A DNA stretch of 52,876 nt from Gammaproteobacteria bacterium (GTDB lineage Bacteria; Pseudomonadota; Gammaproteobacteria; Chromatiales; Chromatiaceae). The position numbers and the translations under genes were made by a program. This document shows positions 2,467-7,935 of this stretch, one piece after another (the stretch's first letter is position 1; each line of letters opens with the position of its first letter). The DNA lies in assembly GCA_003696905.1 (NCBI GenBank), contig RFHJ01000206.1, positions 1-52,876 of the forward strand, read 5' to 3'. The notes under the pieces were generated by a model. It saw only the letters and a list, made by a program, of their open reading frames with translations. It had not been told where the DNA came from and did not search any database.

Positions 2467-2992
2467 ACGGGAACTCTGGGGGGCGTGGCTGTTGCTGCTG
2501 GTGTTCGCCGGCCTGTCCGGCTGCTCCGATGGGCCGCAGACCGGCCCGGTACCGGTACACTTCGACCGCGATACCTGTACCCGCTGCCGCATGGTACTCA
2601 GCGACCCGCGCTTCGTCGCCGAGGTACGCTGGTTCCCGGCGGGAAAGCGCTCCAGGATCGCCAAGTTCGATGACATCGGTTGTGCCGTCCTGTGGCTGGC
2701 GGAACAGCCCTTCCGCGATGATCCCAGGGTCGAGATCTGGGTGGCGGACTATCGCACCCATGGGTGGATCGATGCCCGCAAGGCGTACTACGTGAAACTG
2801 AACAATTCCCCCATGGAATATGGTCTGGGCGCCCAGTCCGATCCGGCCCCCGGCGCGCTCGGTTTCGAGCAGGCCAAGGAGCACATCCGTGAAGTCGAGG
2901 AGAAATTCAACGTCCACGGCCAGCAACTGAAGCAACGGCTGGAGGAGCAGGCGCGAAGACGCGCCCTTCTCAGGCAGACGGAGAAGCCATGA
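2450..2992 (+). CDS. nosL: NosL-like copper lipoprotein
   Basis: Lipobox-like VFAGLSGCS, then DTCTRCRMVLSDPRFVAEV resembling the NosL CxxCxM site. Confidence 0.75.
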   Translation: MWMWLERELWGAWLLLLVFAGLSGCSDGPQTGPVPVHFDRDTCTRCRMVLSDPRFVAEVRWFPAGKRSRIAKFDDIGCAVLWLAEQPFRDDPRVEIWVADYRTHGWIDARKAYYVKLNNSPMEYGLGAQSDPAPGALGFEQAKEHIREVEEKFNVHGQQLKQRLEEQARRRALLRQTEKP

Positions 2993-3816
2993 TGCACCTC
3001 TGGTTGACTGCCGCTACCGATGTGATCGAATCCCTGCGGGCCCGCTGGTTCATGGTCTACTCGCTGGTCTTCGGCGGTATCGTGGTGATCCTGTTTGCCT
3101 TCGGCCTGTCCGAATCACGCATCATGGGGTTCACCGGCCTGTCGCGTCTGTTGGTCACCTATATCCAATTGTCCATGGCGATACTGCCGATCTTCGTCCT
3201 CATCACCACGGTCCGTTCGGTCGCGGGTGACCGCGAGGCGGGTATCTTCGAGTACATGCTCTCGCTGCCGGTATCGCTCTCGGCCTGGTACTGGGGACGC
3301 TTCCTGGGGCGCTTCTTCGTGGTCTTTCTGCCCGTGTTTCTGGCCATGGTGGGCGCCGTGGCATGGGGGATGGTCGAGGGCCTCGAGATCCCGTGGAATC
3401 TGTTCGTCTATTACAGTGGGCTGCTGATGGCGCTCGCCTGGTGTTTTCTGGGCATCGGCATGCTGATCTCTACCCTGGCCCGCTCTTCGGATGTGGCCCA
3501 GGGGGCCGCCTTCCTCGTATGGCTGGTATTGCTGCTGTTCCTCGACCTCATTCTGCTCGGGGTGCTGATCCAGGAGCGATTGCCGCCGGAAACCGCGGTA
3601 GCCATCGCCCTGGCCAATCCGCTGCAGGTGTTTCGTACCGCCACCATGATGCTGTTCGATCCGCAGCTGGTATTGCTGGGTCCGACGGCCTACGTGATTC
3701 TCGATCGTTTCTCTCTGGAGGGTTACATCGCATGGGCAGTGCTCTATCCCATCGTCTTCGGCACCGTGGCGGCGGGTATAGGCTACCTGGTGTTCCGGCG
3801 CAGCGACCTGCCGTGA
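2989..3816 (+). CDS. nosY: ABC transporter permease, NosY-like
   Basis: Six predicted TM segments, ABC-2 type (TTVRSVAGDREAGIFEYMLSLPVS); overlaps the NosL stop by 4 nt. Confidence 0.78.
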   Translation: MMHLWLTAATDVIESLRARWFMVYSLVFGGIVVILFAFGLSESRIMGFTGLSRLLVTYIQLSMAILPIFVLITTVRSVAGDREAGIFEYMLSLPVSLSAWYWGRFLGRFFVVFLPVFLAMVGAVAWGMVEGLEIPWNLFVYYSGLLMALAWCFLGIGMLISTLARSSDVAQGAAFLVWLVLLLFLDLILLGVLIQERLPPETAVAIALANPLQVFRTATMMLFDPQLVLLGPTAYVILDRFSLEGYIAWAVLYPIVFGTVAAGIGYLVFRRSDLP

Positions 3817-4319
3817 GCCCGGCCAGGCGGGCCTGGACCGGGATCGCGCTGCTGATTCTCGCCTCGGTGCTACTGGGGCTTGTGGCCGGCCGTTTGTTGC
3901 GTCCGGCGGCAACGACCGAGATCGTGCGGCTGCAAGCGGACCCGTCCTGTGACCTGCGGGCAGGCCCCTGCGAACTGGCGGTTCCGGGCGGCGGCCGCAT
4001 TCGCTTCGCCATCACGCCACGCGATATTCCCGTGGGCCGGGAGCTGAAGCTCTCGGTCGATCTGGAAGCGCTGCGGGCCGACCGCGTGGTGGTGGACATC
4101 GATGGCGTCGACATGGACATGGGACTCTCGCCGTACCCCTTGCAGGCACGGGGAGGGGGTCACTTCGAAGGGCCGGGTGGGTTGAACTTCTGCAGCCGCG
4201 GCATCATGGAATGGGAGGCGAAGGTGACCGTTCGGCGCGGCAGCGAGGAGATCATTGCGCCCTTCCGCTTCATTACCGAGGCGCCCGATCCCGCGGTTCC
4301 GCTGAACGAGATGGGCTAA
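3813..4319 (+). CDS. membrane-anchored periplasmic protein, possibly FixH/YtkA-like
   Basis: GTG start overlapping the nosY stop; N-terminal TM anchor, beta-rich domain with VDMDMG motif. Confidence 0.55.
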   Translation: MSPARRAWTGIALLILASVLLGLVAGRLLRPAATTEIVRLQADPSCDLRAGPCELAVPGGGRIRFAITPRDIPVGRELKLSVDLEALRADRVVVDIDGVDMDMGLSPYPLQARGGGHFEGPGGLNFCSRGIMEWEAKVTVRRGSEEIIAPFRFITEAPDPAVPLNEMG

Positions 4320-4341: not shown

Positions 4342-5121
4342 GTGGACGCCAACCGGTTTTCCAAGCGCCTGGGTCTCGTCTGGCTGGCCATGCTGGCCTG
4401 CGCCGCGGCCGATGCTGCCGAGCCCGTACGCCCGCTGGCACTGGTGCCCGGCGACTGTGCAAAGCCCGGGCCCGCGATGGATCTGCGGGGCTGTTCATTC
4501 GCCGGTCGGCGGATGCCAGGGGTGGACCTCAGCAACGCGCGCCTCGACGGAGTGGACCTGAGCAATGCAGCCCTGCCCGGGTGTCGTCTGTGGAACACGG
4601 TGTTGATTCGGGCGAATCTGAAATGGGCCAGCCTGGTGGATTGCGAGATGAGCCAGGCCGACCTGGCCCACGCCGATCTGTTCCACACGACCTTCGACGG
4701 CGCCCGCCTGAACGGTGCCCGTTTTCATCGGGCGAACATGTTCGGCGCCAATCTGAACGAGGTGACCGCGGTGGATGCGGATTTCACCCACGCCTGCATG
4801 AAGGATGTCGCCATGGAGGAGGGACGCTTCGATCGCAGTGATTTCTCGAACGCCTTCATGCAGCGAGCGGTCCTCATCGGCAGCAGTCTGCGCGGCGCGG
4901 TGTTCTTCGAGGCAGTCCTCACCGGCGCAGCGCTGGAGGAAAGCGACCTGACGGGAGCCGATCTGAGCCGCGCGCTCGTCAATGGCGCACATTTCAATGA
5001 TGCGCTGTTGGTGGGGGCCGACTTTCGTGATGCCCGATTGCCCAATGCGGTGTTCGACGGCGCCGACCTTTCCGGAGCGCGCCATCTGCCCACGGGCGTG
5101 GCGGGGCAGGCGTCACGGTGA
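4342..5121 (+). CDS. secreted pentapeptide-repeat protein
   Basis: GTG start; signal peptide then many A(D/N)LXX repeats (LSNARLDGVDLSNAALPG..., LTGADLSRALVNGAHFNDALLVGADFRDARL). Confidence 0.85.
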   Translation: MDANRFSKRLGLVWLAMLACAAADAAEPVRPLALVPGDCAKPGPAMDLRGCSFAGRRMPGVDLSNARLDGVDLSNAALPGCRLWNTVLIRANLKWASLVDCEMSQADLAHADLFHTTFDGARLNGARFHRANMFGANLNEVTAVDADFTHACMKDVAMEEGRFDRSDFSNAFMQRAVLIGSSLRGAVFFEAVLTGAALEESDLTGADLSRALVNGAHFNDALLVGADFRDARLPNAVFDGADLSGARHLPTGVAGQASR

Positions 5122-5200: not shown

Positions 5201-5542
5201 ATGAAGCCTTTTGTTCGTGTAGTTTCGATGTCGCTGTTGCTGTTACTGCAGCCGGTGCATGCCGCCCCCGCCACTGAGGCCCAACTGCAGGCGATCGCCC
5301 GCATGGGAGAACTCAACGGCGTCGCGTTGCAGTGCCGCTTCGTGGACCAGGTTCGTCGCATCAAACAGGAACTGATCAAACGTCTGCCCAAGCAGCGCGC
5401 ACTGGGCGCCTGGTTCGAACAGAAGACGAATGCAGCCTTCACCGATTTCATCAACCGTGGCGATCGATGTCCCGGCCTGCTCGAGTTCGAAAAGGATCTC
5501 GAGCAGGCGGTGGCCAGACTCGACGAGGCCTTCTCGCCATGA
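5201..5542 (+). CDS. small secreted hypothetical protein
   Basis: Signal peptide MKPFVRVVSMSLLLLLQPVHA; stop overlaps the start of the downstream fusion gene. Confidence 0.6.
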   Translation: MKPFVRVVSMSLLLLLQPVHAAPATEAQLQAIARMGELNGVALQCRFVDQVRRIKQELIKRLPKQRALGAWFEQKTNAAFTDFINRGDRCPGLLEFEKDLEQAVARLDEAFSP

Positions 5543-6969
5543 GGGGCTCTTGGTACCGGGTCCTGGTAGCAGGACTCCTCTTGTTGCTGACGCTCGGCCG
5601 GGTGGAGGCCGCGGGCGACCTGAAGGTGGTGGCGACCATCAAGCCGGTGCATGCCCTGCTCGCCGGTCTGATGAAGGACATCGGCGAGCCACAGTTGCTG
5701 CTGCAGGGCGAGCAGAGCCCTTTCGACTATCAGCCCGACGAGCGTGCCCGGCGATTGCTGCAGGAGGCGGATCTCGTGGTCTGGGTGGGGCCGGAACTCG
5801 AGAAGACGCTGCAGCCCTTGATCGCCGGCCTGCCGCAGCGCACTCGGGTGATCGAACTGCTCTCTCAGGACGATCTCAAGATTCTGCCTTCGCGCACCGA
5901 TCCGACGCAGCGTAATCCCTTCTTCTGGATGGACGATCGCAATGCCATCATCCTGCTGGATCTGCTCACCGATGCCTTGATCGCCATCGATCCGGAGCGA
6001 TCCCATGTGTATACCCGGAATCGTCTGCGCCTGCTCAAACCGCTCAAGCGCATCGATCGGGAGTACGAGTACGGCTATCGTGGCCTCCAGACGGGCACTG
6101 TCGCCGAGTATTACGACAGTCTCTACTATTTCGAGCAGGCCTATGCCCTGCCCGTGGTCGGGCACGTGGCCACCACGCCATGGGACCCGATAGAAACCGC
6201 CAAGGTACTGGCTTTGCGCAGCCGGATGCGGGAGTACAAGACCGGCTGCCTGCTGCTCGATCGCGGCATGCCCGCAGAAGGGCTCGAACTGCTGACCACC
6301 GACATGGCGCTGACACAGGACACACTGGATCCCCTTGGCCTCCAGTTGCCGGCGGGCGAAGGGTTGTACGTGAAGCTCATGCGCCACAACACCGACGTCA
6401 TCAAGGGCTGTCTGCAGGCCGACATGGACGAGGCCGCGAGAGCCCGCGCCCAGGCCGAGGCCGCCTTCATTCCCGACAACGAGGGCATCGGCGGGCGCTT
6501 CATTCTCACCGACCAGTATGGGCGGCTGGTGACGGAAGAGAATTTGCGTGGCCATTGGTCGCTGGTCTATTTCGGCTACACCCACTGCCCCGATGTCTGT
6601 CCCACCTCGCTCGCCACCATGACCCAGGCATTGAAGCGGCTGGGGCCCAAGGCGGAGCGGATCCAGCCCTATTTCGTCACGGTGGATCCGGAACGGGACA
6701 AGGCTTCGGTCATACGTGAATACGTGAAGTACTTCGACCCGCGATTGATCGGCCTGACGGGCACGCCGGCGATGATCCAGCGCCTGGCGGACGAGTTCGG
6801 CGTGAGGTTCGAAAAGGGCGAGGTGGACCCGGAGGATCCAAGCCTGTACGCGATGGACCATTCCGCCAGCCTGTTCCTGATGGCGCCGGACGGCCGATTC
6901 GTCACCAAGTTCGCCTACGGGATCAGTGCCCGTACCCTGGCAGAGAAGCTGGAGGAGTATGTGCGGTGA
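5539..6969 (+). CDS. fusion protein: N-terminal ZnuA/TroA-type substrate-binding domain + C-terminal SCO1/SenC domain
   Basis: N-part VVATIKPVHALLAGLMKDIGEP...LLQEADLVVWVGPELE is ZnuA-like; C-part VYFGYTHCPDVCPTSLATM...VDPERDK...YAMDHSASLFLMAPDGRFV is SCO1-like. Single uninterrupted ORF. Confidence 0.85.
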   Translation: MRGSWYRVLVAGLLLLLTLGRVEAAGDLKVVATIKPVHALLAGLMKDIGEPQLLLQGEQSPFDYQPDERARRLLQEADLVVWVGPELEKTLQPLIAGLPQRTRVIELLSQDDLKILPSRTDPTQRNPFFWMDDRNAIILLDLLTDALIAIDPERSHVYTRNRLRLLKPLKRIDREYEYGYRGLQTGTVAEYYDSLYYFEQAYALPVVGHVATTPWDPIETAKVLALRSRMREYKTGCLLLDRGMPAEGLELLTTDMALTQDTLDPLGLQLPAGEGLYVKLMRHNTDVIKGCLQADMDEAARARAQAEAAFIPDNEGIGGRFILTDQYGRLVTEENLRGHWSLVYFGYTHCPDVCPTSLATMTQALKRLGPKAERIQPYFVTVDPERDKASVIREYVKYFDPRLIGLTGTPAMIQRLADEFGVRFEKGEVDPEDPSLYAMDHSASLFLMAPDGRFVTKFAYGISARTLAEKLEEYVR

Positions 6970-7183: not shown

Positions 7184-7852
7184 TCAATCGTCGACGATGG
7201 AGAGATAGGCAAAGATGTCGCGCAGCTCCTCGTCGGTGAAGTCATCCAACAGCTCGTCGTCCGGCTCGTCTTCGTCATGCAGGCGGATCCTGTTGCGGAA
7301 CTTCTTCACCTGGCGCCACAGGTAACTGGTGTACTGACCCGCCAGCATCGGCACGCCCTTCTTCTCACGCCCCCAGCCCTCCCTGCCGTGGCAGATCGCG
7401 CACTCGCGACGGTAGAGCCTGCGACCCTTCTCGAAATTTCCCGGCGCGCGGGGGACCTGCATGATCTGCTTGGATTCCAGCAGGCGGGCGTAGGCATCGA
7501 ACCCCGGCGCCTTGTCGTCCACTGGCGGCAGCTTGGTCTTGAGCTCGATCCGGTTCAAATACTGCGCGATCTGGAACATGTCCTCTTCCGGAAGCTGGCG
7601 TTGGTCCACGTGTTCTACCATCGGCAGGTTGGGGCGTTCCCGGTTCTGGAAGAGATGCAGCTGACGGATGAGGTAGTCGACGGGCTGCCCGGCGATGCGG
7701 GGGTATTCGCCCCCCTTGCCGCCCTGGCCGAATTCGCTGTGACAGCCGGCGCATTCCTCGTTGATCTCCTCGCCGATGTCCGGGTCGTATTCGTAGGCCG
7801 CAGCGGTAGTCCAGGCGAACAGCAGGAGCAGGATTCCGATGGGCTTGGTCAT
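7184..7852 (-). CDS. periplasmic diheme cytochrome c
   Basis: Signal peptide; two CxxCH motifs (CAGCH, CAICH) and QLPEEDMFQIAQYL / TDEELRDIFAYL class I cytochrome c helices. Confidence 0.82.
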   Translation of the reverse strand: MTKPIGILLLLFAWTTAAAYEYDPDIGEEINEECAGCHSEFGQGGKGGEYPRIAGQPVDYLIRQLHLFQNRERPNLPMVEHVDQRQLPEEDMFQIAQYLNRIELKTKLPPVDDKAPGFDAYARLLESKQIMQVPRAPGNFEKGRRLYRRECAICHGREGWGREKKGVPMLAGQYTSYLWRQVKKFRNRIRLHDEDEPDDELLDDFTDEELRDIFAYLSIVDD

Positions 7853-7935
7853 TGGCGTTTCCCGGATTCTGACATGGCGAAATTGACCTGATCCGTTTCG
7901 ACCCGCCAGTATCCGCAAAGGTCCTTTCCAGTCAC

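Follow-up and report, generated by a model that had tools for sequence, protein, structure and literature searches.

What does a bacterium do with a protein that joins a ZnuA-type metal-binding domain, stripped of its three histidine ligands, to an intact SCO1 copper domain? The gene that poses this question lies on the forward strand of the window, the whole 52,876-nucleotide stretch of Chromatiaceae DNA (contig RFHJ01000206.1) analysed here, and it stands among nos genes. NosZ, the enzyme that the fusion would target, destroys the greenhouse gas N2O, and no established route for filling the CuA site in bacteria with a Sec-exported NosZ was found in the literature. The fusion and the small gene in front of it offer two concrete candidates for this step, one of which represents an undescribed protein family.

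The fusion gene (5539-6969, forward strand) reads through without interruption and encodes 476 residues; its ATG shares bases with the stop codon of the small ORF at 5201-5542 (ATGA). Sequence reading and a model helix at residues 4-19 predict a Sec signal peptide at residues 1-25 (5539-5613), which is followed by a ZnuA-like domain (residues 28-292; 5620-6414), a fast-evolving linker (residues 293-315; 6415-6483), and a SCO1 domain (residues 316-476; 6484-6966). Pfam places PF01297 (ZnuA) on residues 30-290 over nearly the entire profile (E 2.9e-34; 119 bits against a curated threshold of 29) and PF02630 (SCO1-SenC) on residues 318-454 over all of it, 1-134/134 (E 2.3e-49; 167 bits against 22.8). 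In an AlphaFold model built with 21 homologues as input (mean pLDDT 84), the matches to ZnuA and to Bradyrhizobium ScoI fall on two separate domains: E. coli ZnuA (2osv/2prs) reaches a TM of 0.88-0.89 on target with a best E of 1.6e-17, ScoI/SCO1 reach about 0.9, and junction residues 309-316 drop below a pLDDT of 50. The SCO1 ligands C350 and C354 (CPDVC, 6586-6600) and H441 (6859-6861) are invariant in the 21-member alignment. An earlier note on this DNA had described a single ORF uniting a ZnuA-type with an intact SCO1 domain; ORF, Pfam, model, and homologues all bear this out, and 22 of the 142 genomes sampled carry the same two-domain architecture. Over 20 full-length homologues, drawn from different assemblies, are likewise encoded in a single frame, which rules out an assembly artefact joining two genes; the copy in the MAG G027 alone is frameshifted. 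There (L134, reverse strand), the frameshift falls in the final helix of the ZnuA domain and may be either a genuine split or an error of sequencing.

Alignment with E. coli and Salmonella ZnuA shows which ligands have changed. SEHDY aligns with SPF(62)DY of the fusion, NMHLW with NPF(128)FW, and FHDAY with YY(192)DSL, so that the histidines become F62 (5722-5724), F128 (5920-5922), and Y192 (6112-6114), the very His-to-Phe, His-to-Phe, and His-to-Tyr exchanges first noted. The extra Glu of E. coli ZnuA (SE-H) is gone as well, with Pro61 in its place. The fourth ligand of the family, the Asp in LDPLG, to which the earlier note did not refer, is kept as Asp264 (6328-6330). C237 and C291 are common to canonical ZnuA. 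The fusion scores below both the ZnuA equivalog model (72.8 versus 268 bits) and the AztC model (70.6 versus 350 bits). It thus belongs to both the SCO family and the ZnuA fold family but falls outside the functional zinc-binding ZnuA group. Pfam finds no ABC-3 permease among the annotated neighbours of the fusion in the window. The genome's sole ABC-3 (ZnuB-type) match is a fragment cut by a contig end (G000, contig C53, 8825-9181), and a canonical znuA may be absent from this assembly.

The ligand columns of 33 members of the ZnuA-like family, all of them fusions but one, were then set against those of 16 canonical ZnuA proteins from the same and related genomes. All 16 canonical proteins carry HHH plus D. 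The three columns are aromatic (F/Y/W) in 26, 31, and 23 of the 33 family members, which show F/Y/L/H/W, F/Y/H/W, and Y/F/H/L/Q/D there, and the fourth-ligand Asp is kept in 31 of them. The 33 members form one side of a branch with a support of 100/100. As far as the aligned columns can tell, loss of the three histidines is a clade-wide trait and not one protein's peculiarity, and the canonical Zn/Mn site that the earlier note considered lost from the N-terminal module does appear to be missing. Across the family, W82, E88, W130, D193, D264, and His38 remain as in canonical ZnuA, and Y180, R181, Q200, and Y191 are new, family-specific conserved residues. Close pairs with measurable dS give dN/dS values of 0.08-0.19 for the ZnuA part and 0.05-0.13 for the SCO part; the ZnuA-like domain is under purifying selection, as is the SCO domain. 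Linker 293-315 drifts, with 20-65% identity in close pairs. Clade-wide aromatic columns, conserved residues, and the low dN/dS together argue that the site was exchanged and did not decay, which makes this an example of a metal-binding protein fold put to another use with most of its conserved residues kept.

The gene order of the window connects the fusion to nitrous-oxide reductase, as the earlier note had proposed. Starting at the contig end, the forward strand carries a nosG-like ferredoxin of the NapG/MauM type whose start is lost (1-609; NapG and 4Fe-4S profiles, with an 84% identical copy in the G001 nos cluster), the NapH-type membrane ferredoxin nosH (611-1576; TIGR02163 above cut-off, kept in the nos clusters of relatives), a nosF-like ABC ATPase (1588-2466; PF00005 and synteny), the copper lipoprotein nosL with a CTRCRM motif (2450-2992; PF05573 above cut-off), and a nosY-like ABC-2 permease (2989-3816; PF12679 and synteny). 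CXXCXM in NosL is the clade II form (PMC6530538). Two further forward-strand genes precede the small gene: one for a periplasmic protein that neither Pfam nor NCBIfam recognises (3813-4319), also found between nosY and the fusion in L113 and L153, and one for a secreted pentapeptide-repeat protein (4342-5121; PF00805), also found upstream of the fusion in L114, L119, L120, and L153. In those four loci, the pentapeptide-repeat genes stand next to nos genes. Downstream, a dihaem cytochrome c gene on the reverse strand (7184-7918; PF00034), near the fusion in several relatives too, converges with the fusion and is followed by parA and parB.

The nosZ gene itself lies on a separate contig, C220, where rsmG is followed by PCuAC (reverse; recognised by PF04314, E 2e-33) and then by nosZ, after which the contig ends. 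G001, a sister species in the same genus, has PCuAC, nosZ, nosG-H-F-L-Y, the small gene, and the fusion on one contig, and this synteny strongly indicates that C220 and the window are neighbours. The nosG-H-F-L-Y genes of the window thus place the fusion in a nos cluster, to which the G001 synteny adds nosZ.

Directly upstream of the fusion, and absent from the earlier note, is the gene for a small secreted protein of 113 aa (5201-5542, forward strand), whose undescribed family is the most interesting part of the locus. Its two cysteines, C45 and C90, are invariant in the alignment, a signal peptide is predicted, and the model is a four-helix fold with a pLDDT of 91. No relative was found in Pfam, NCBIfam, PHROGs, PDB sequences, PDB folds, or viral structures, and the model gave no PDB match at E<=0.001. 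The plasmids searched contained neither the full fusion nor the small protein. Every fusion locus examined has a homologue of the small protein immediately in front of the fusion, and among the 142 genomes the small protein occurs in 22/22 with the fusion and in five others. Four of these five (G100, G043, G030, and G077) have it beside or joined to a SCO protein without the ZnuA part; in G021, the remaining one, the contig stops at this point. The small domain and SCO form one polypeptide in G043 (L159, 7527-8384), and in-frame single polypeptides of this kind also occur in L049, L055, L058, L059, and L066. These latter five belong to betaproteobacterial and other MAGs, and in L066 a PCuAC gene directly follows. 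Since the small protein adjoins or fuses to plain SCO elsewhere, it is best regarded as a SCO partner, and the ZnuA-like domain as an optional module inserted between the two.

Co-occurrence strengthens the connection to NosZ. The nosZ gene is present in 20 of 22 fusion genomes and in 25 of 120 without the fusion (Fisher p 4e-10, relatedness ignored); within the family the counts are 20/22 and 22/65 (p 3e-6, likewise ignoring relatedness). For the small protein, they are 25/27 against 20/115 of the others, again without regard to relatedness, and all eight further small-protein genomes outside the family have nosZ. The NosZ proteins retrieved from these fusion and small-protein genomes carry Sec-type signals by inspection, and the five genomes with a retrieved Tat-type NosZ have neither the fusion nor the small protein. 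The association has exceptions: 14 of the 43 retrieved Sec-type NosZ come from genomes that have neither. No nosZ was detected in two fusion genomes, G078 (70% complete) and G013 (99% complete). G013 (L132, 9528-12172) has kept the small gene and, beside nosY, the fusion, with IS3-type transposase-like ORFs nearby; this may be a broken nos cluster. Two more gene neighbourhoods suggest a connection with copper and thiol redox. One surrounds the second G067 copy (L128), which is part of a copper-resistance cluster containing CopB, a CusB-like protein, a multicopper oxidase, and a P-type ATPase, together with DsbA and DsbB; in the other, the unfused ZnuA-like protein of G100 (L135) adjoins DsbA and CcdA/DsbD genes.

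SCO proteins, which bind copper through a CxxxC motif and a distal His, have a part in assembling CuA sites. In Paracoccus, senC2 (SCO) and pcuC (PCuAC) mutants are reported to reduce less N2O at low copper, an effect that a review assigns to NosZ CuA (PMC7558416). This SCO role, the Paracoccus mutants, and the joint presence of PCuAC, SCO, and NosL suggest that the fusion helps to fill the CuA site of the periplasmic, Sec-exported NosZ. On balance, it is probably an assembly factor for that site, with the ZnuA domain as a metal-free docking or regulatory module. The SCO domain would take up copper by its CxxxC/His site and would either hand it to the NosZ CuA site or reduce the thiols of that site, PCuAC and NosL from the same cluster serving as other copper carriers. 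The ZnuA-type domain, its canonical Zn/Mn binding presumably gone and its ligand ring refilled with aromatic side chains, would hold the SCO domain in position, its likeliest counterpart being the small two-Cys protein and/or NosZ. We infer each of these elements, from the NosZ CuA target to the copper transfer and the docking role of the ZnuA domain. Since SCO proteins also serve cytochrome c oxidases, the fusion may have clients besides NosZ. A bolder and more tentative version, which we hold possible but would not yet prefer, is a previously undescribed three-part NosZ copper-insertion unit made up of the small two-Cys protein, a converted aromatic pocket that recognises the partner, NosZ, or a copper complex, and the SCO domain. 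No description of the ZnuA-SCO fusion was found in the largely open-access literature searched.

The main alternative to docking is a different ligand in the aromatic cleft. The ZnuA-like domain might bind a copper complex, Cu(I) via cation-pi contacts, or an organic molecule and pass it to SCO, a reading that we consider rather unlikely. The site would consist of the ring of the aromatic cleft with Asp264, His38, Tyr191, and the Arg/Tyr on the connecting helix. Purifying selection on the domain would fit such a site, as would the pattern of change, in which W82, E88, W130, D193, D264, and H38 are untouched and only the three histidines are swapped, mostly to aromatics. However, the 33-member family offers no conserved Met/Cys/His set able to replace the old site, and His38 is invariant in canonical ZnuA too and so provides no new ligand. 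Moreover, the columns vary among members (F/Y/L/W/H), which fits packing better than one specific ligand.

An improbable reading is that the fusion is a general SCO protein for haem-copper oxidases and that its nos neighbourhood is incidental. Among SCO proteins it matches ScoI/SCO1 best, and these act on cytochrome c oxidase; moreover, roughly half of the fusion loci have no nos genes next to them. Yet the presence/absence link with nosZ is strong, the nos-cluster location recurs in different families (L113, L153, and L155), and other SCO paralogues are present in the same genomes.

It is very improbable that the ZnuA domain carries or senses zinc through a relocated site (for example, H38/D264/D193) and so couples the assembly of copper enzymes to zinc status. 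Conservation of Asp264 and His38 speaks for such a site, as does the fact that no relative is nearer than canonical ZnuA. One family member, G069, is alone in keeping all three histidines; but in G069 the Asp has become Asn, and the columns of its sister G014 read Y-F-F. Some genomes with a family member (G074, G027, and G037) also encode canonical ZnuA paralogues, which tell against this idea, since they imply that zinc uptake is served elsewhere. Zinc uptake as the main role is rejected on the clade-wide loss of the ligands and on these same paralogues. Least credible of all is a dying ZnuA remnant fused to SCO by chance: decay could indeed start with loss of the metal site, but the domain is retained in at least five family-level groups with one frameshifted MAG as its only broken copy, its dN/dS resembles that of the SCO domain while the linker drifts, and it has gained the invariant residues Y180, R181, Q200, and Y191, so that decay is rejected on dN/dS and retention.

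CuA assembly by a SCO domain that a ZnuA-type module docks, the reading preferred here, can be set against known systems. Compared with SCO1/SenC/ScoI proteins (PF02630; Bradyrhizobium ScoI 4wbj, Paracoccus SenC2), the fusion shares the full SCO domain with CxxxC and the distal His. Its SCO domain is 43% identical to Bradyrhizobium ScoI and has the same fold (TM about 0.9), and for SenC2 a role in NosZ/COX CuA assembly has been reported. Unlike these proteins, the fusion adds an N-terminal ZnuA-type domain and a secreted two-Cys partner, and it has a predicted cleavable signal peptide in place of a membrane anchor. With ZnuA/AztC (PF01297; E. coli ZnuA 2osv), it shares the fold, two cysteines, the Asp ligand, and many conserved residues, whereas it lacks the three His ligands and the neighbouring Glu, has no adjacent permease gene, and is joined to SCO.

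In a literature search, neither the small protein nor the ZnuA-SCO fusion was found among described nos genes. A functional parallel comes from Paracoccus denitrificans, in which PCuAC, SenC2, and Pden_4445 are reported to affect N2O reduction at low copper (Sullivan 2013, cited in PMC7558416). Both systems combine PCuAC and SCO with a protein that has no annotated function. With clade II-type nos clusters, finally, the window shares the nosG and nosH ferredoxins and a CXXCXM NosL.
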